Below are positions 36,515-42,886 of a stretch of 42,886 nt of DNA, in pieces. The notes beneath the pieces are model-generated. The model ran no database searches, was not told the origin of the DNA, and saw only the letters and a program-made list of their open reading frames with translations. This DNA comes from Acidobacteriaceae bacterium (GTDB taxonomy: Bacteria > Acidobacteriota > Terriglobia > Terriglobales > Acidobacteriaceae): contig JASIAO010000193.1 in assembly GCA_030041955.1 (NCBI GenBank), positions 1 to 42,886 of the forward strand, given 5' to 3'. Position 1 is the stretch's first letter. The number at the start of each line of letters is the position of its first letter. The translations under genes were made by a program, and so were the position numbers.

Positions 36515-37288
36515 TCAGCGCGTTTGGATCATGAGCGGTTCCTCCGCTGCGGACGGAACAAATTTCGCCACAATTTCCACTTCTTCCTCGCCCAGCGCCT
36601 CCCCTGCCAGAAGTATCGCCGGAGCGGGTCCCGGCGTGATCCGGTCCAGTTCCGACAGCGTTGTCCGCACCACATGCTGGTCCGGCTGTGCGGCGCGCGA
36701 AACTACGACGCACGGGAGGTCCGCGGGCAAACCCTCGCTCCGTAATTGCGCGGTAACTCCACGCAGGTCGCGCCCAGGCATGTAGACCACACGAGTCGCG
36801 CCCAGCAGGGAAGCGGGCTGCAGCTCCGAGCCCGGCGCATGATGCCCCGACGAAAAGCTGATGCTCGACGCGCTTCGTCTGTCGGTCAGGGGTTTGCGCA
36901 GCGCCGCTGCTGCCGCGAAGCCCGCTGTAATACCCGGCACCACCTCAAACGGCACGCTGGCCGCGCGCAGCGCATTCATCTCCTCGCCCGCACGCCCAAA
37001 CACCAGCGGATCGCCGGATTTCAGCCGCACCACGGCCAATCCCCGCCGCGCATGGTCGATCATCATCGCGTGAATCTGCTCCTGCGTGATGTTCTTCCGC
37101 CCGCAGCGCTTGCCGACGTTCACGGTCAACGCGCACTCTGCCAGCGCCAGCACTGCCCCCGGAACCAGATCGTCGTGCAGCACCACGTCTGCCATGGCCA
37201 GCAGCCGCGCCGCCTTTAGCGTCAGCAGCTCTGGATCGCCCGGACCCGCGCCCACCAGGTACACTGTTCCGCGCTTTGCCTCCGTCAT
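36515..37288 (-). CDS. cobA: Uroporphyrinogen-III C-methyltransferase
   Basis: 257 aa; GTVYLVGAGPGDPELLTLKAARLLAMADVVLHDDLV, RLKSGDPLVFGRAGEEMNALR, VVPGITAGFAAAA. Confidence 0.95.
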   Translation of the reverse strand: MTEAKRGTVYLVGAGPGDPELLTLKAARLLAMADVVLHDDLVPGAVLALAECALTVNVGKRCGRKNITQEQIHAMMIDHARRGLAVVRLKSGDPLVFGRAGEEMNALRAASVPFEVVPGITAGFAAAAALRKPLTDRRSASSISFSSGHHAPGSELQPASLLGATRVVYMPGRDLRGVTAQLRSEGLPADLPCVVVSRAAQPDQHVVRTTLSELDRITPGPAPAILLAGEALGEEEVEIVAKFVPSAAEEPLMIQTR

Positions 37289-37935
37289 GCGCTCACCTCA
37301 GCATCCCGCGCCGCTGCCACTCTCTCTCGCGCGAATTCCCGCGCGGGGCAATCCGCCGACCTGCACAGTTGACGTGCCGCAAGCTCATGCAGCAGCAGAT
37401 TCCGTGCCGCTCCCGACGGCATCGCGGCGCGAATCTCGCGCCGCAGCGCGCCCAGTTCGCTGAGCCATGGTCCCAAATCCGCCGGCAGCTGCGCATCGAT
37501 CTCCCGCCGCAACCGCTGCGCCAGCGCCGGGCTCTCGCCCGCTGTCGAAATCGCCACCTGCAAATCGCCGCGCGTCACCACTGAGCCGAAATAAAAATCG
37601 CAATTCGGTGGATCGTCGACCGCATTGCACAGCACATTCCGCCGCATCGCCTCCTCATAGACCGCGTGGTTGATGTCCGGCGCATTCGTTGCCGCGATCA
37701 CCAGGAAAACCCCTTCAAGGTCGCACGCCTCAAACACACGCTCGTGCCACACCAGCGCGCCCTCGTTCGCCAGCGACCGCACCTCTGCCTTCGCCTGCGG
37801 AGCCACCACGGTAATCTCCGCTCCAGCGCCACGCAGGCTTTCGATCTTTGCCAGAGCCACGGTGCCCGCACCGACCACGAGGCACTGGCGCCGCTCCAGC
37901 CGCAGAAAAATTGGCAACAGATTGCGCTCGCTCAT
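37285..37935 (-). CDS. Precorrin-2 dehydrogenase / sirohydrochlorin ferrochelatase-like (CysG N-terminal domain)
   Basis: LPIFLRLERRQCLVVGAGTVALAKIESLRGAGAEITVVAP, NAVDDPPNCDFYFGSVVTRGDLQVAISTAGESPALAQRLRREID. ATG 37935 overlaps reductase stop (ATGA); stop overlaps cobA start. Confidence 0.92.
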   Translation of the reverse strand: MSERNLLPIFLRLERRQCLVVGAGTVALAKIESLRGAGAEITVVAPQAKAEVRSLANEGALVWHERVFEACDLEGVFLVIAATNAPDINHAVYEEAMRRNVLCNAVDDPPNCDFYFGSVVTRGDLQVAISTAGESPALAQRLRREIDAQLPADLGPWLSELGALRREIRAAMPSGAARNLLLHELAARQLCRSADCPAREFARERVAAARDAEVSA

Positions 37936-39632
37936 CCGGCCAGCTCCGCAGGGACGCGGCCCGCCGGCAAATCGCGCTCCACCGGAGCCAAATCCTCGCC
38001 CGCCAGCGCCGCGCGCAGCTCCGCATCCTCTTTGCGGCCGAACCACGTGCGCAGGTTCTCCGCCGGCTCCCGCTCGTCCAGATACTTGCGCAGCAGCCGC
38101 TCCATCGCCTCCGGAACCAGCTGCGCCGGGGAGCGAAAGCCCACCGGCCGCGCCACTCCCGCGTGCTTGCCGACCGAGCCGCCGACGCAGAAGTAGTAGG
38201 CGTCGGTCAGCTTGCCATCGTGCTTGATCTTCTTTCCCTCGAGTCCGATGTCCGCGATCCAGTGCTGGCCGCAGCTGTTTGGGCAGCCCGTCACGTGCAG
38301 CCGCAGTTGCTGATCGAACTGCGGAAGCCGCTCCTCCATCTCATCCACCAGCCAGCGCAGAAAGCCCTTCGTCTCGGTAATCGCGAGCTTGCAGAACTCC
38401 GTGCCGGTGCAGGCGATGCCGCCGCGCCAGAAGGGTGTGCCGTCCACGCGCAGCCCGAGCGTCCCCAACTCCCGCGCCAGCTCGCCCGCGCGGCTGGTCG
38501 GAATATTCAGGAACAGCAGGTTCTGCATCACGGTCAGCCGCAGCTCGCCGCGGCCGCTCGCGCTGAATCCTTTCGCCAGTTCTGCTGCCGCCGCCAGCTG
38601 ATCGCCGGTCAGCCGTCCGCGCAACACGCTTGCGCCCACATAGCTCAGTCCTGGCTGCTTCTGGGGGTGAATCCCCGCGTGATCCCGCAGGATATCTTCC
38701 GGCACAACTTCTTCCACCGCTGGATCGAGGCTGTATCCAAGACGCGCTTCAATCTCCAGCAGGAATCGCTCCGCCATCCATCCTTCCTTCATGAAGAGAT
38801 ATTTCAGTCGCGCGCGATCCCGGCTCTCGCGCAGCCCCAGCTGATCCCGGAAGATTTCCGCAATCGTGCGTACCACTGCTGACGCTTGCTCCTGGCGCAC
38901 AAACGCGTTCAGATGCACCGCCAGATGCGGCTCATTCGAGAGTCCGCCGCCCACGCGCACCGAGTAGCCGACTTCGTCGCCGCGCCGGACCGCCGTCAGC
39001 GCGATGTCGTTGATCTCCGGATACGAGCACCACACGGGGCAACCCGTCACCGAGATCTTGAACTTCCGCGGCAGGTTGAAGAACTCGTTGTTGCCCTGCA
39101 GCTCGCGCGCAATCTCCACCGCCAGCGGTGACGCGTCGATCAGCTCATCGTGCGCAATTCCCGCCAGGGGGCAGCCCGTCACGTTGCGTACGACGTCACC
39201 GCACGCGCCCTTCGGCGACAGACCCACGGCGTCCAGCTTCTCCATAATCTCCGGCAGCGACTCAACCGTCAGCCAGTGGTACTGGATGTTCTGCCGCACC
39301 GTGATGTCCGCAAGGTTGCGCCCGTATTGCTGCGCAATCTCCGCCAGCGCCCGCGCCTGGTCCGCTCGCAAAATCCCGTTGGGCACGCCCACGCGCATCA
39401 TGAAGTAGTCGGTGGCTTTGCCCTCGCCGTTTTTGCCACCAGTTACTCCGGCGCCGTCGCCCTGCGTGTAAATGCCCCACCAGCGGAAGTACATGTTCCA
39501 GTCTTCGGGAATCGATCCGCGCCCGTTGCGGGCGAAGGCTCGAATTTCTTCAATCGCGTCCCAGGGATTCTTCTCGCGCTTCAGGCGCTCGGCCTTCTGC
39601 GCTTTCGTCTCTTTCACGGCCAGTTCCGCCAT
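37932..39632 (-). CDS. Ferredoxin-dependent nitrite/sulfite reductase (siroheme, 4Fe-4S)
   Basis: ITVRQNIQYHWLTVESLPEIM, GDVVRNVTGCPLAGI, FKISVTGCPVWCSYPEINDI, LHVTGCPNSCGQHWIADIGLEG. ATG at 39632 preferred. Confidence 0.93.
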   Translation of the reverse strand: MAELAVKETKAQKAERLKREKNPWDAIEEIRAFARNGRGSIPEDWNMYFRWWGIYTQGDGAGVTGGKNGEGKATDYFMMRVGVPNGILRADQARALAEIAQQYGRNLADITVRQNIQYHWLTVESLPEIMEKLDAVGLSPKGACGDVVRNVTGCPLAGIAHDELIDASPLAVEIARELQGNNEFFNLPRKFKISVTGCPVWCSYPEINDIALTAVRRGDEVGYSVRVGGGLSNEPHLAVHLNAFVRQEQASAVVRTIAEIFRDQLGLRESRDRARLKYLFMKEGWMAERFLLEIEARLGYSLDPAVEEVVPEDILRDHAGIHPQKQPGLSYVGASVLRGRLTGDQLAAAAELAKGFSASGRGELRLTVMQNLLFLNIPTSRAGELARELGTLGLRVDGTPFWRGGIACTGTEFCKLAITETKGFLRWLVDEMEERLPQFDQQLRLHVTGCPNSCGQHWIADIGLEGKKIKHDGKLTDAYYFCVGGSVGKHAGVARPVGFRSPAQLVPEAMERLLRKYLDEREPAENLRTWFGRKEDAELRAALAGEDLAPVERDLPAGRVPAELAG

Positions 39633-39668
39633 GGTGTCTCCGTTTCGGTGCGGCAATATTTCCAGCAA

Positions 39669-39708
39669 AAACAAAAAACCCGCGTCAGCATAGGGCTGAA
39701 GCGCGGGC
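39669..39708 (-). terminator. Intrinsic terminator (attenuator candidate) between Cys-rich uORF and reductase
   Basis: Minus strand CCCGCG-ct-TCAGC-cctat-GCTGA-CGCGGG followed by TTTTTTGTTTTT. Confidence 0.85.
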
Positions 39709-39736
39709 TTATGGGATCGGCTTGATCTTTAGGGGA

Positions 39737-39805
39737 TCACCCACAAGTCCGGCGCAGCGCGCAACAACAAGCGCAGCACATCGCCGGAATGGGGCACATG
39801 ACCAT
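39737..39805 (-). CDS. Cysteine-rich leader peptide (22 aa, 7 Cys)
   Basis: Hand translation of minus strand from ATG 39805: MVMCPIPAMCCACCCALRRTCG*. In-frame alternative ATGs at 39799 and 39781. Not in ORF track (too short). Confidence 0.75.
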   Translation of the reverse strand: MVMCPIPAMCCACCCALRRTCG

Positions 39806-39813
39806 TGATTTCG

Positions 39814-39842
39814 ATATTACCTGGCAAATCGCCAACGGTCAA
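39814..39842 (-). promoter_or_regulatory. Sigma70-like promoter for leader peptide / reductase operon
   Basis: Minus strand TTGACC (39842-39837), 17-nt spacer, TAATAT (39819-39814); predicted +1 falls at about the leader ATG. Confidence 0.7.
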
Positions 39843-41348: not shown

Positions 41349-41438
41349 GGAGAGATGGCCGAGTGGCTGAAGGCGCACGCTTGGAAAGCGTGTATGCTCG
41401 AAAGGGCATCCAGGGTTCGAATCCCTGTCTCTCCGCCA
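41349..41438 (+). tRNA. tRNA-Ser (anticodon GGA), CCA encoded
   Basis: GGAGAGA acceptor pairs with TCTCTCC; anticodon arm ACGCTTGGAAAGCGT; long variable arm TGCTCGAAAGGGCA; T-arm CAGGGTTCGAATCCCTG; CCA at 41436-41438. Confidence 0.96.
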
Positions 41439-42404: not shown

Positions 42405-42886
42405 TTGTTCGAGAGTCTTCGACCATTTCGGCGAAGGGACGCTCTGCGCGATGCGCGCGCCGGCATCACGCTCGCCGCGATGAACATTCCGCAGGTACTG
42501 GGGTATACGCGGATCGCGGGCATGCCGGTGGTGGCCGGGCTCTATACACTCCTGGCGCCAATGGCGGCATTCGCGGTATTTGGATCGTCGCGATATCTGG
42601 TGGTCGCAGCGGATTCAGCGACAGCGGCGATTCTGGCGAGCGGATTGGCTGGGATGGCCCCGATGGCCAGCCCCGCCTGGGTGACGCTGGCCGGCTATGT
42701 GGCGCTCCTGACCGGTGCGTTCCTGCTGCTCGGCCGGCTCTTCCGGCTGGGATTCATCGCAGATTTCCTGTCGCAGACTGTGCTGTTGGGCTTCCTCACC
42801 GGAGTGGGATTCCAGGTTGGCATCGCAGTACTCGGCGAGACCATCGGCTTGCCGGTGAACTCGCGTCGAACGATCGGACAGCTGAT
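42405..42886 (+). CDS. SulP family sulfate/anion permease, N-terminal part (truncated by window edge)
   Basis: Not in ORF track. Translation from TTG 42405: LFESLRPFRRRDALRDARAGITLAAMNIPQVLGYTRIAGMPVVAGLYTLLAPMAAFAVFGSSRYLVVAADSATAAILASGLAG...GFLTGVGFQVGIAVLGE is SulP-like. Start codon uncertain. Confidence 0.85.
   Translation, partial: MFESLRPFRRRDALRDARAGITLAAMNIPQVLGYTRIAGMPVVAGLYTLLAPMAAFAVFGSSRYLVVAADSATAAILASGLAGMAPMASPAWVTLAGYVALLTGAFLLLGRLFRLGFIADFLSQTVLLGFLTGVGFQVGIAVLGETIGLPVNSRRTIGQL

Follow-up and report, generated by a model that had tools for sequence, protein, structure and literature searches.

The cysteine-rich leader upstream of a siroheme-dependent reductase operon very probably (about 0.88) controls transcription by ribosome-mediated attenuation in response to charged tRNA-Cys. 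The operon comes from a soil acidobacterium and lies on the minus strand of the window, by which we mean the whole 42,886-nucleotide stretch of DNA analyzed. As judged from its architecture, the switch would most likely turn sulfur assimilation on at cysteine shortage. Sequence and computation establish the leader and its promoter, the terminator, competing helices, their conservation and covariation, and a regulon. The attenuation reading, already put forward in a preliminary description of this DNA, is favored because Cys codons and terminator are conserved, a competing antiterminator covaries, and the downstream genes nearly all belong to sulfate assimilation.

The leader, its promoter and its competing folds

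The elements of the locus, in order of transcription, are as follows.

39814 to 39842, minus strand: sigma-70-like promoter TTGACC-N17-TAATAT (1 promoter-like site versus 0.1 expected in shuffles)
39737 to 39805, minus strand: leader ORF MVMCPIPAMCCACCCALRRTCG, 22 codons, 7 Cys, probably leaderless, with orthologues in relatives
39782 to 39788, minus strand: segment 1 (UCCGGCG), predicted to pair with segment 2 when ribosome-free (alignment columns 25-29/75-79; folds)
39761 to 39778, minus strand: regulatory Cys run TGC TGC GCT TGT TGT TGC (core TGTTGTTG nearly invariant in 21 aligned leaders)
39739 to 39755, minus strand: segment 2 (GCGCCGGACUUGUGGGU), end of the leader ORF and antiterminator 5' strand (duplex calculations; constrained folds)
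39701 to 39715, minus strand: segment 3 (CCCAUAAGCCCGCGC), antiterminator 3' strand, overlapping the terminator 5' arm (duplexes; folds)
39676 to 39710, minus strand: intrinsic terminator hairpin (3:4), AAGCCCGCG..CGCGGGUUU (folding; conservation in relatives)
39667 to 39678, minus strand: terminator U tract TTTTTTGTTTTT (from sequence)
37932 to 39632, minus strand: probable siroheme sulfite reductase (SirA/NirA-like), the controlled gene (nearest models 'nitrite reductase')
37285 to 37935, minus strand: precorrin-2 dehydrogenase (CysG N-terminal type), overlapping the reductase stop
36515 to 37288, minus strand: uroporphyrinogen-III C-methyltransferase (siroheme synthesis)

All the parts originally described are present: the promoter, the leader, the hairpin followed by its U tract, and the ATG of the reductase at 39632. 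TTGACC (39842-39837) is followed after 17 nt by TAATAT (39819-39814) and, 8 nt further on rather than the roughly 9 nt first given, by the ATG at 39805. The leader ORF stops at TGA (39739-39737), and the terminator stem CCCGCG...CGCGGG begins 29 nt past this stop and runs into TTTTTTGTTTTT. Folds are more stable than those of shuffled sequences both from the leader to the terminator (z = -2.7) and from the leader end through the terminator (z = -3.1). The Cys run also forms the center of a local hairpin, GCGC-UUGUUGUU-GCGC, in which alignment column pair 51/64 changes from CG to UA. At gathering score, the leader region matches no Rfam family, T-box and SAM riboswitch included.

Across relatives, an upstream promoter-like pair was detected for 50 of 72 leaders, and in 37 of these 50 the distance from the end of the -10 element to the start codon is 6-7 nt. 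A Shine-Dalgarno-like motif is absent from 71 of 72 leaders (one has such a motif). This spacing suggests that the leader AUG lies at or within a few nucleotides of the transcription start; the leader is probably leaderless because it starts 6-8 nt past the -10 element and has no Shine-Dalgarno sequence.

The predicted antiterminator, a helix absent from the preliminary description, joins the end of the leader ORF (GCGC-C-GG-A-CUUGUGGG) to the 5' arm of the terminator (CCCAUAAG-CC-C-GCGC). For 20 of the 21 sequences, the predicted energy of this 2:3 helix lies between -15 and -26 kcal/mol; in L016 the duplex is weak (-8 kcal/mol). Cognate strands form stronger duplexes than pairs made by exchanging strands among the sequences (p=0.0008, 21 sequences), an advantage that also holds for 68 sequences together and for both leader types taken separately (p<1e-4), with relatedness only partly removed in these permutation tests. 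Compensation is visible by eye, for example, as GGAU with AUCC in L020 and as UUGUG-A-GCGA with UCGC-CACAA in L015. The number of sequestered terminator-arm bases exceeds that of shuffles (9.0 versus 6.7; 61 of 69 loci, Wilcoxon 7e-11); the automatic test detected no such sequestration in L154 and L160. Shuffle tests of the antiterminator at single loci are mostly non-significant (7% at p<=0.05), and only pooled tests reach significance. The RNAalifold consensus contains only the 1:2 and 3:4 helices with little covariation, because an indel in segment 3 causes misalignment; duplex permutation was therefore used.

Folding with part of the leader sequestered, as first proposed for this locus, gave a switch between terminator and 2:3 helix that follows ribosome position in all 21 sequences: the terminator forms when a ribosome footprint is masked at the stop codon, and the 2:3 helix forms when the footprint covers the Cys run at a stage before segment 4 is transcribed. 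Unmasked full transcripts form 1:2 and 3:4. Once the complete transcript is at equilibrium, the antiterminator usually loses to the terminator, which means that switching has to depend on kinetics, as it does in trp. Other pairings were set aside. GUGGG with CCCGCG alone as antiterminator was replaced by the longer covarying helix. The alternatives named in the preliminary description, TGATC/GATCA over the leader stop and GGGtGATC/GATCCC, do occur in the window sequence but by eye are not retained in the aligned relatives.

From this arrangement we infer the transcription start, ribosome stalling, the polarity of the response and Cys-tRNA as its signal. Transcription would begin just before or at the leader AUG, allowing a ribosome to load on the 5' end. 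With ample Cys-tRNA, the ribosome would reach UGA and cover segment 2, the 3:4 terminator would form, and transcription would end before the reductase. With scarce Cys-tRNA, the ribosome would stall on the CCACCC run, opening the 1:2 hairpin and freeing segment 2 to pair with segment 3 before segment 4 is made; no terminator could then form, and the sulfite reductase/siroheme operon would be transcribed. Without translation, 1:2 and 3:4 would form, giving basal termination.

Conservation among relatives

The genome that contains the window carries a second, diverged copy of the leader (72% over ~100 nt) directly upstream of cysD, with the peptide MSLKMNPASGWGCCCCAPRTCG and its own promoter and terminator. 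Each of 11 same-genus relatives has at least one leader match, and in 10 of the 11 one match precedes the reductase. The peptides of these relatives share the frame MxxCPxPxxCCACCCALRRTCG, and promoter, Cys run, leader end and terminator all align. Alignment upstream of orthologous reductases, another check raised at the outset, likewise shows conserved Cys codons, promoter and terminator. In one leader (L014:911-985), an apparent 2-nt deletion near the end places the C-terminus in another frame (MGLCHIPWACCACCCTLRRSWMSR).

At E<=0.01, a covariance model of the leader finds matches in 40 of 160 genomes of the family and 26 of 79 genera, seed sequences counted. By inspection, 39 of 41 new matches encode Cys-rich peptides, MCRCTCCCCCCCCAFVSSDARGLLT being an extreme example. 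L068 and L071 are false matches, with downstream genes outside sulfur metabolism and no convincing leader. An exact pattern search over the phylum returned mostly chance matches in coding DNA and one real new leader, L028.

A set of 80 named reductase loci was retrieved through their proteins, independently of this model, and 79 of them were examined (L087 came without upstream sequence). A Cys uORF was called 120-270 nt upstream in 72 of the 79, and an intrinsic terminator is present in 69 of the 72 loci with a called leader. Cys runs are shorter in L130, L139 and L145, whose leaders have 2 Cys, and the available sequence of L110 begins inside the leader region with the terminator visible. 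A CC-containing uORF lies directly upstream of the reductase in 75 of the 80 named loci. Three of the 80 reductases (L158, L151 and L157) sit inside longer sulfur operons with a Cys leader at the head: in L158, the leader MHIVSIASMCCCRPCCVRSRVEVHS precedes yeiH, the first gene of a yeiH-reductase operon, and in L151 and L157 the gene order is cysN-cysH-reductase, with Cys leaders preceding cysD in both genomes. Reductases that seem to lack a leader thus fit the model because the head gene of their operon has one. L103, titled as an Opitutia bacterium, has an acidobacterial-type reductase and a Cys leader and is probably a binning error. Reductases with ~48% identity from a sister family within the order also have Cys uORFs, some with terminators; no Cys uORF was found for distant reductases of three other acidobacterial genomes (L181-L183).

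The frequency of the terminator bears on an alternative in which, as in mycobacteria, a ribosome stalled on, or passing over, the leaderless Cys ORF would alter access to the reductase ribosome-binding site, leaving the hairpin a by-product. Such translation attenuation would have the same leaderless poly-Cys architecture as that reported for M. smegmatis (Canestrari et al. 2020, via PMC13236596 and PMC9031893). We nevertheless regard it as improbable, given a GC-rich hairpin and U tract between leader and gene in those 69 loci and a conserved alternative helix that uses the terminator 5' arm rather than the GGAG before the reductase ATG.

Codon usage, regulon and enzyme identity

Cys-rich uORFs, defined by at least three Cys including CC, occur in 93% of 76 reductase loci compared with 3% of dinucleotide shuffles and 7% of reverse strands. 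The excess of Cys is the largest among the 20 amino acids, with Ala, Leu and Val moderately raised. Leaders prefer the rare Cys codon, with 224 TGT and 84 TGC against 57 TGT and 656 TGC in the reductases. In the L081-L160 leaders, 73% of Cys codons are TGT; reductase Cys codons of these GC-rich genomes are 92% TGC. Save for Cys, the peptides vary between clades (CCACCC, CCRxC, C8, CLCCTC), which points to the codons rather than a nascent-peptide motif.

The covariance-model matches lie upstream of the reductase in 25 cases, a Prx6-type peroxiredoxin in nine and cysD in two, with single matches preceding siroheme synthase, yeiH and a 3-mercaptopyruvate sulfurtransferase-like rhodanese. This tally covers matches outside the seed genomes' own leaders, except that reductase L046 is seed locus L016, and two matches are the false ones. 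Seed leaders additionally precede cysD and cysH. The Prx6-type genes stand behind leaders with Cys runs and terminators in several genera (L054, L063, L064, L067, L069, L075, L077, L078 and L079). These leaders possibly reflect a link between sulfur starvation and antioxidant defense like that of LsfA, which would tie an LsfA-type peroxiredoxin to cysteine supply. Such targets are less surprising because the Pseudomonas Prx6 LsfA takes its name from induction at low sulfate (PMC4199769).

Three further genes were observed. A TauE/SafE-like membrane protein (by eye; L217:6433-7197, minus strand, G441) follows the cysD region behind a leader and is a possible additional regulon member. In the window, an ORF start resembling SulP-type anion permeases (42405-42884, plus strand) is cut by the window end, and a tRNA-Ser (GGA) gene (41349-41438, plus strand) lies between genes for a MATE transporter and an RNA methyltransferase-like protein.

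CysB- or CymR-type regulators fill the role of sulfur-assimilation control elsewhere. With roughly even odds, leaderless, Cys-tRNA-sensing transcription attenuators may take that role in Terriglobales, as the main control of the whole sulfate-assimilation regulon (cysD-cysN-cysH-reductase, siroheme synthesis, yeiH, rhodanese and LsfA-type peroxiredoxins), one per operon and moving with the operon head.

The peptides and their targets also speak to a different signal, in which the Cys-rich nascent peptide would sense metal or redox state instead of tRNA-Cys charging. For copper-responsive Cys-rich uORFs, metal sensing by the nascent peptide has been proposed; Cys-rich peptides can bind metals, and peroxiredoxin genes are among the targets here. 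Yet Cys number and spacing vary freely between clades, the targets are chiefly sulfate-assimilation genes, and the antiterminator is placed as expected for stalling at Cys codons, making a metal or redox signal very doubtful. Finally, GC-rich DNA often folds and single-locus shuffle p-values are modest, but the excess of Cys uORFs over shuffles (93% versus 3%), the 2:3 covariation, the matches in all same-genus relatives and the second copy before cysD leave a negligible chance that base composition alone produced a Cys-looking ORF and a hairpin.

The preliminary description had argued for an assimilatory sulfite reductase rather than a nitrite reductase, and this assignment is supported because the window protein is the sole NIR_SIR protein found in its genome (97% complete), the closest relative with a solved structure is M. 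tuberculosis NirA (1zj8), none of the molybdopterin proteins examined reached a nitrate-reductase cut-off, and the same type of leader precedes cysD and cysH. The nearest NCBIfam models are of nitrite reductase, none at cut-off. CysD is the only PAPS_reduct protein found in this genome; cysH may lie in a gap, because the cysD contig ends just after cysD. The 'nitrite reductase' annotation should thus probably be corrected to sulfite reductase.

Comparison with known attenuators

The locus shares with the trp, his and leu attenuators a leader peptide rich in the end product, a 1:2 protector, a 2:3 antiterminator and a 3:4 terminator, as well as a biosynthetic operon downstream and rare regulatory codons. 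A leader ORF with regulatory codons, an intrinsic terminator and a downstream operon that makes the sensed amino acid are all found here; an antiterminator that excludes the terminator and is released when a ribosome stalls at those codons is a result of computation only. In contrast to these systems, the codons specify Cys rather than Trp, His or Leu, the leader is probably leaderless and the host belongs to Acidobacteriota. The likeness is one of architecture, and we claim no sequence homology.

Cysteine attenuation is already known as a concept. Shell et al. 2015 proposed that the Cys-rich leaderless uORFs of mycobacteria were the first known cases of attenuation directed by cysteine (PMC4633059), and Canestrari et al. 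2020 is cited as demonstrating translation attenuation (PMC13236596, PMC9031893). In a 2021 survey, a transcription attenuator with Cys codons, the uORFC-8-2 motif, was predicted upstream of the cysteinyl-tRNA synthetase gene cysS in Rhodobacterales (PMC8632094). Compared by description, this motif shares with our locus the prediction of transcription attenuation by Cys codons, tandem Cys codons in the first stem and a terminator at the end. However, it controls cysS alone, has two Cys codons near codon 14-15 and occurs in alphaproteobacteria, whereas the acidobacterial leaders serve a sulfur regulon. No account of Cys attenuators in Acidobacteriota was found in the literature searched, with most subscription papers outside the search; what appears to be new is the family in Acidobacteriota, the regulon it serves and the pairing of a poly-Cys leader, probably leaderless, with an intrinsic terminator. 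With its many naturally occurring sequence variants, the family lends itself to dissecting stalling, antitermination and leaderless initiation in a cysteine attenuator.

The leaderless polycysteine sORFs of mycobacteria resemble the acidobacterial leaders, which are probably leaderless too, in carrying a Cys run and lying upstream of cysteine and sulfur genes. They are cysteine-responsive, a property predicted here, and are described as acting through translation attenuation, whereas a terminator and an antiterminator are conserved in the acidobacterial family, which belongs to another phylum and encodes other peptides. Leaderless poly-Cys leaders seem to occur in two phyla that are far apart, and their outputs apparently differ, with termination here and translation in mycobacteria; this pattern suggests convergence.
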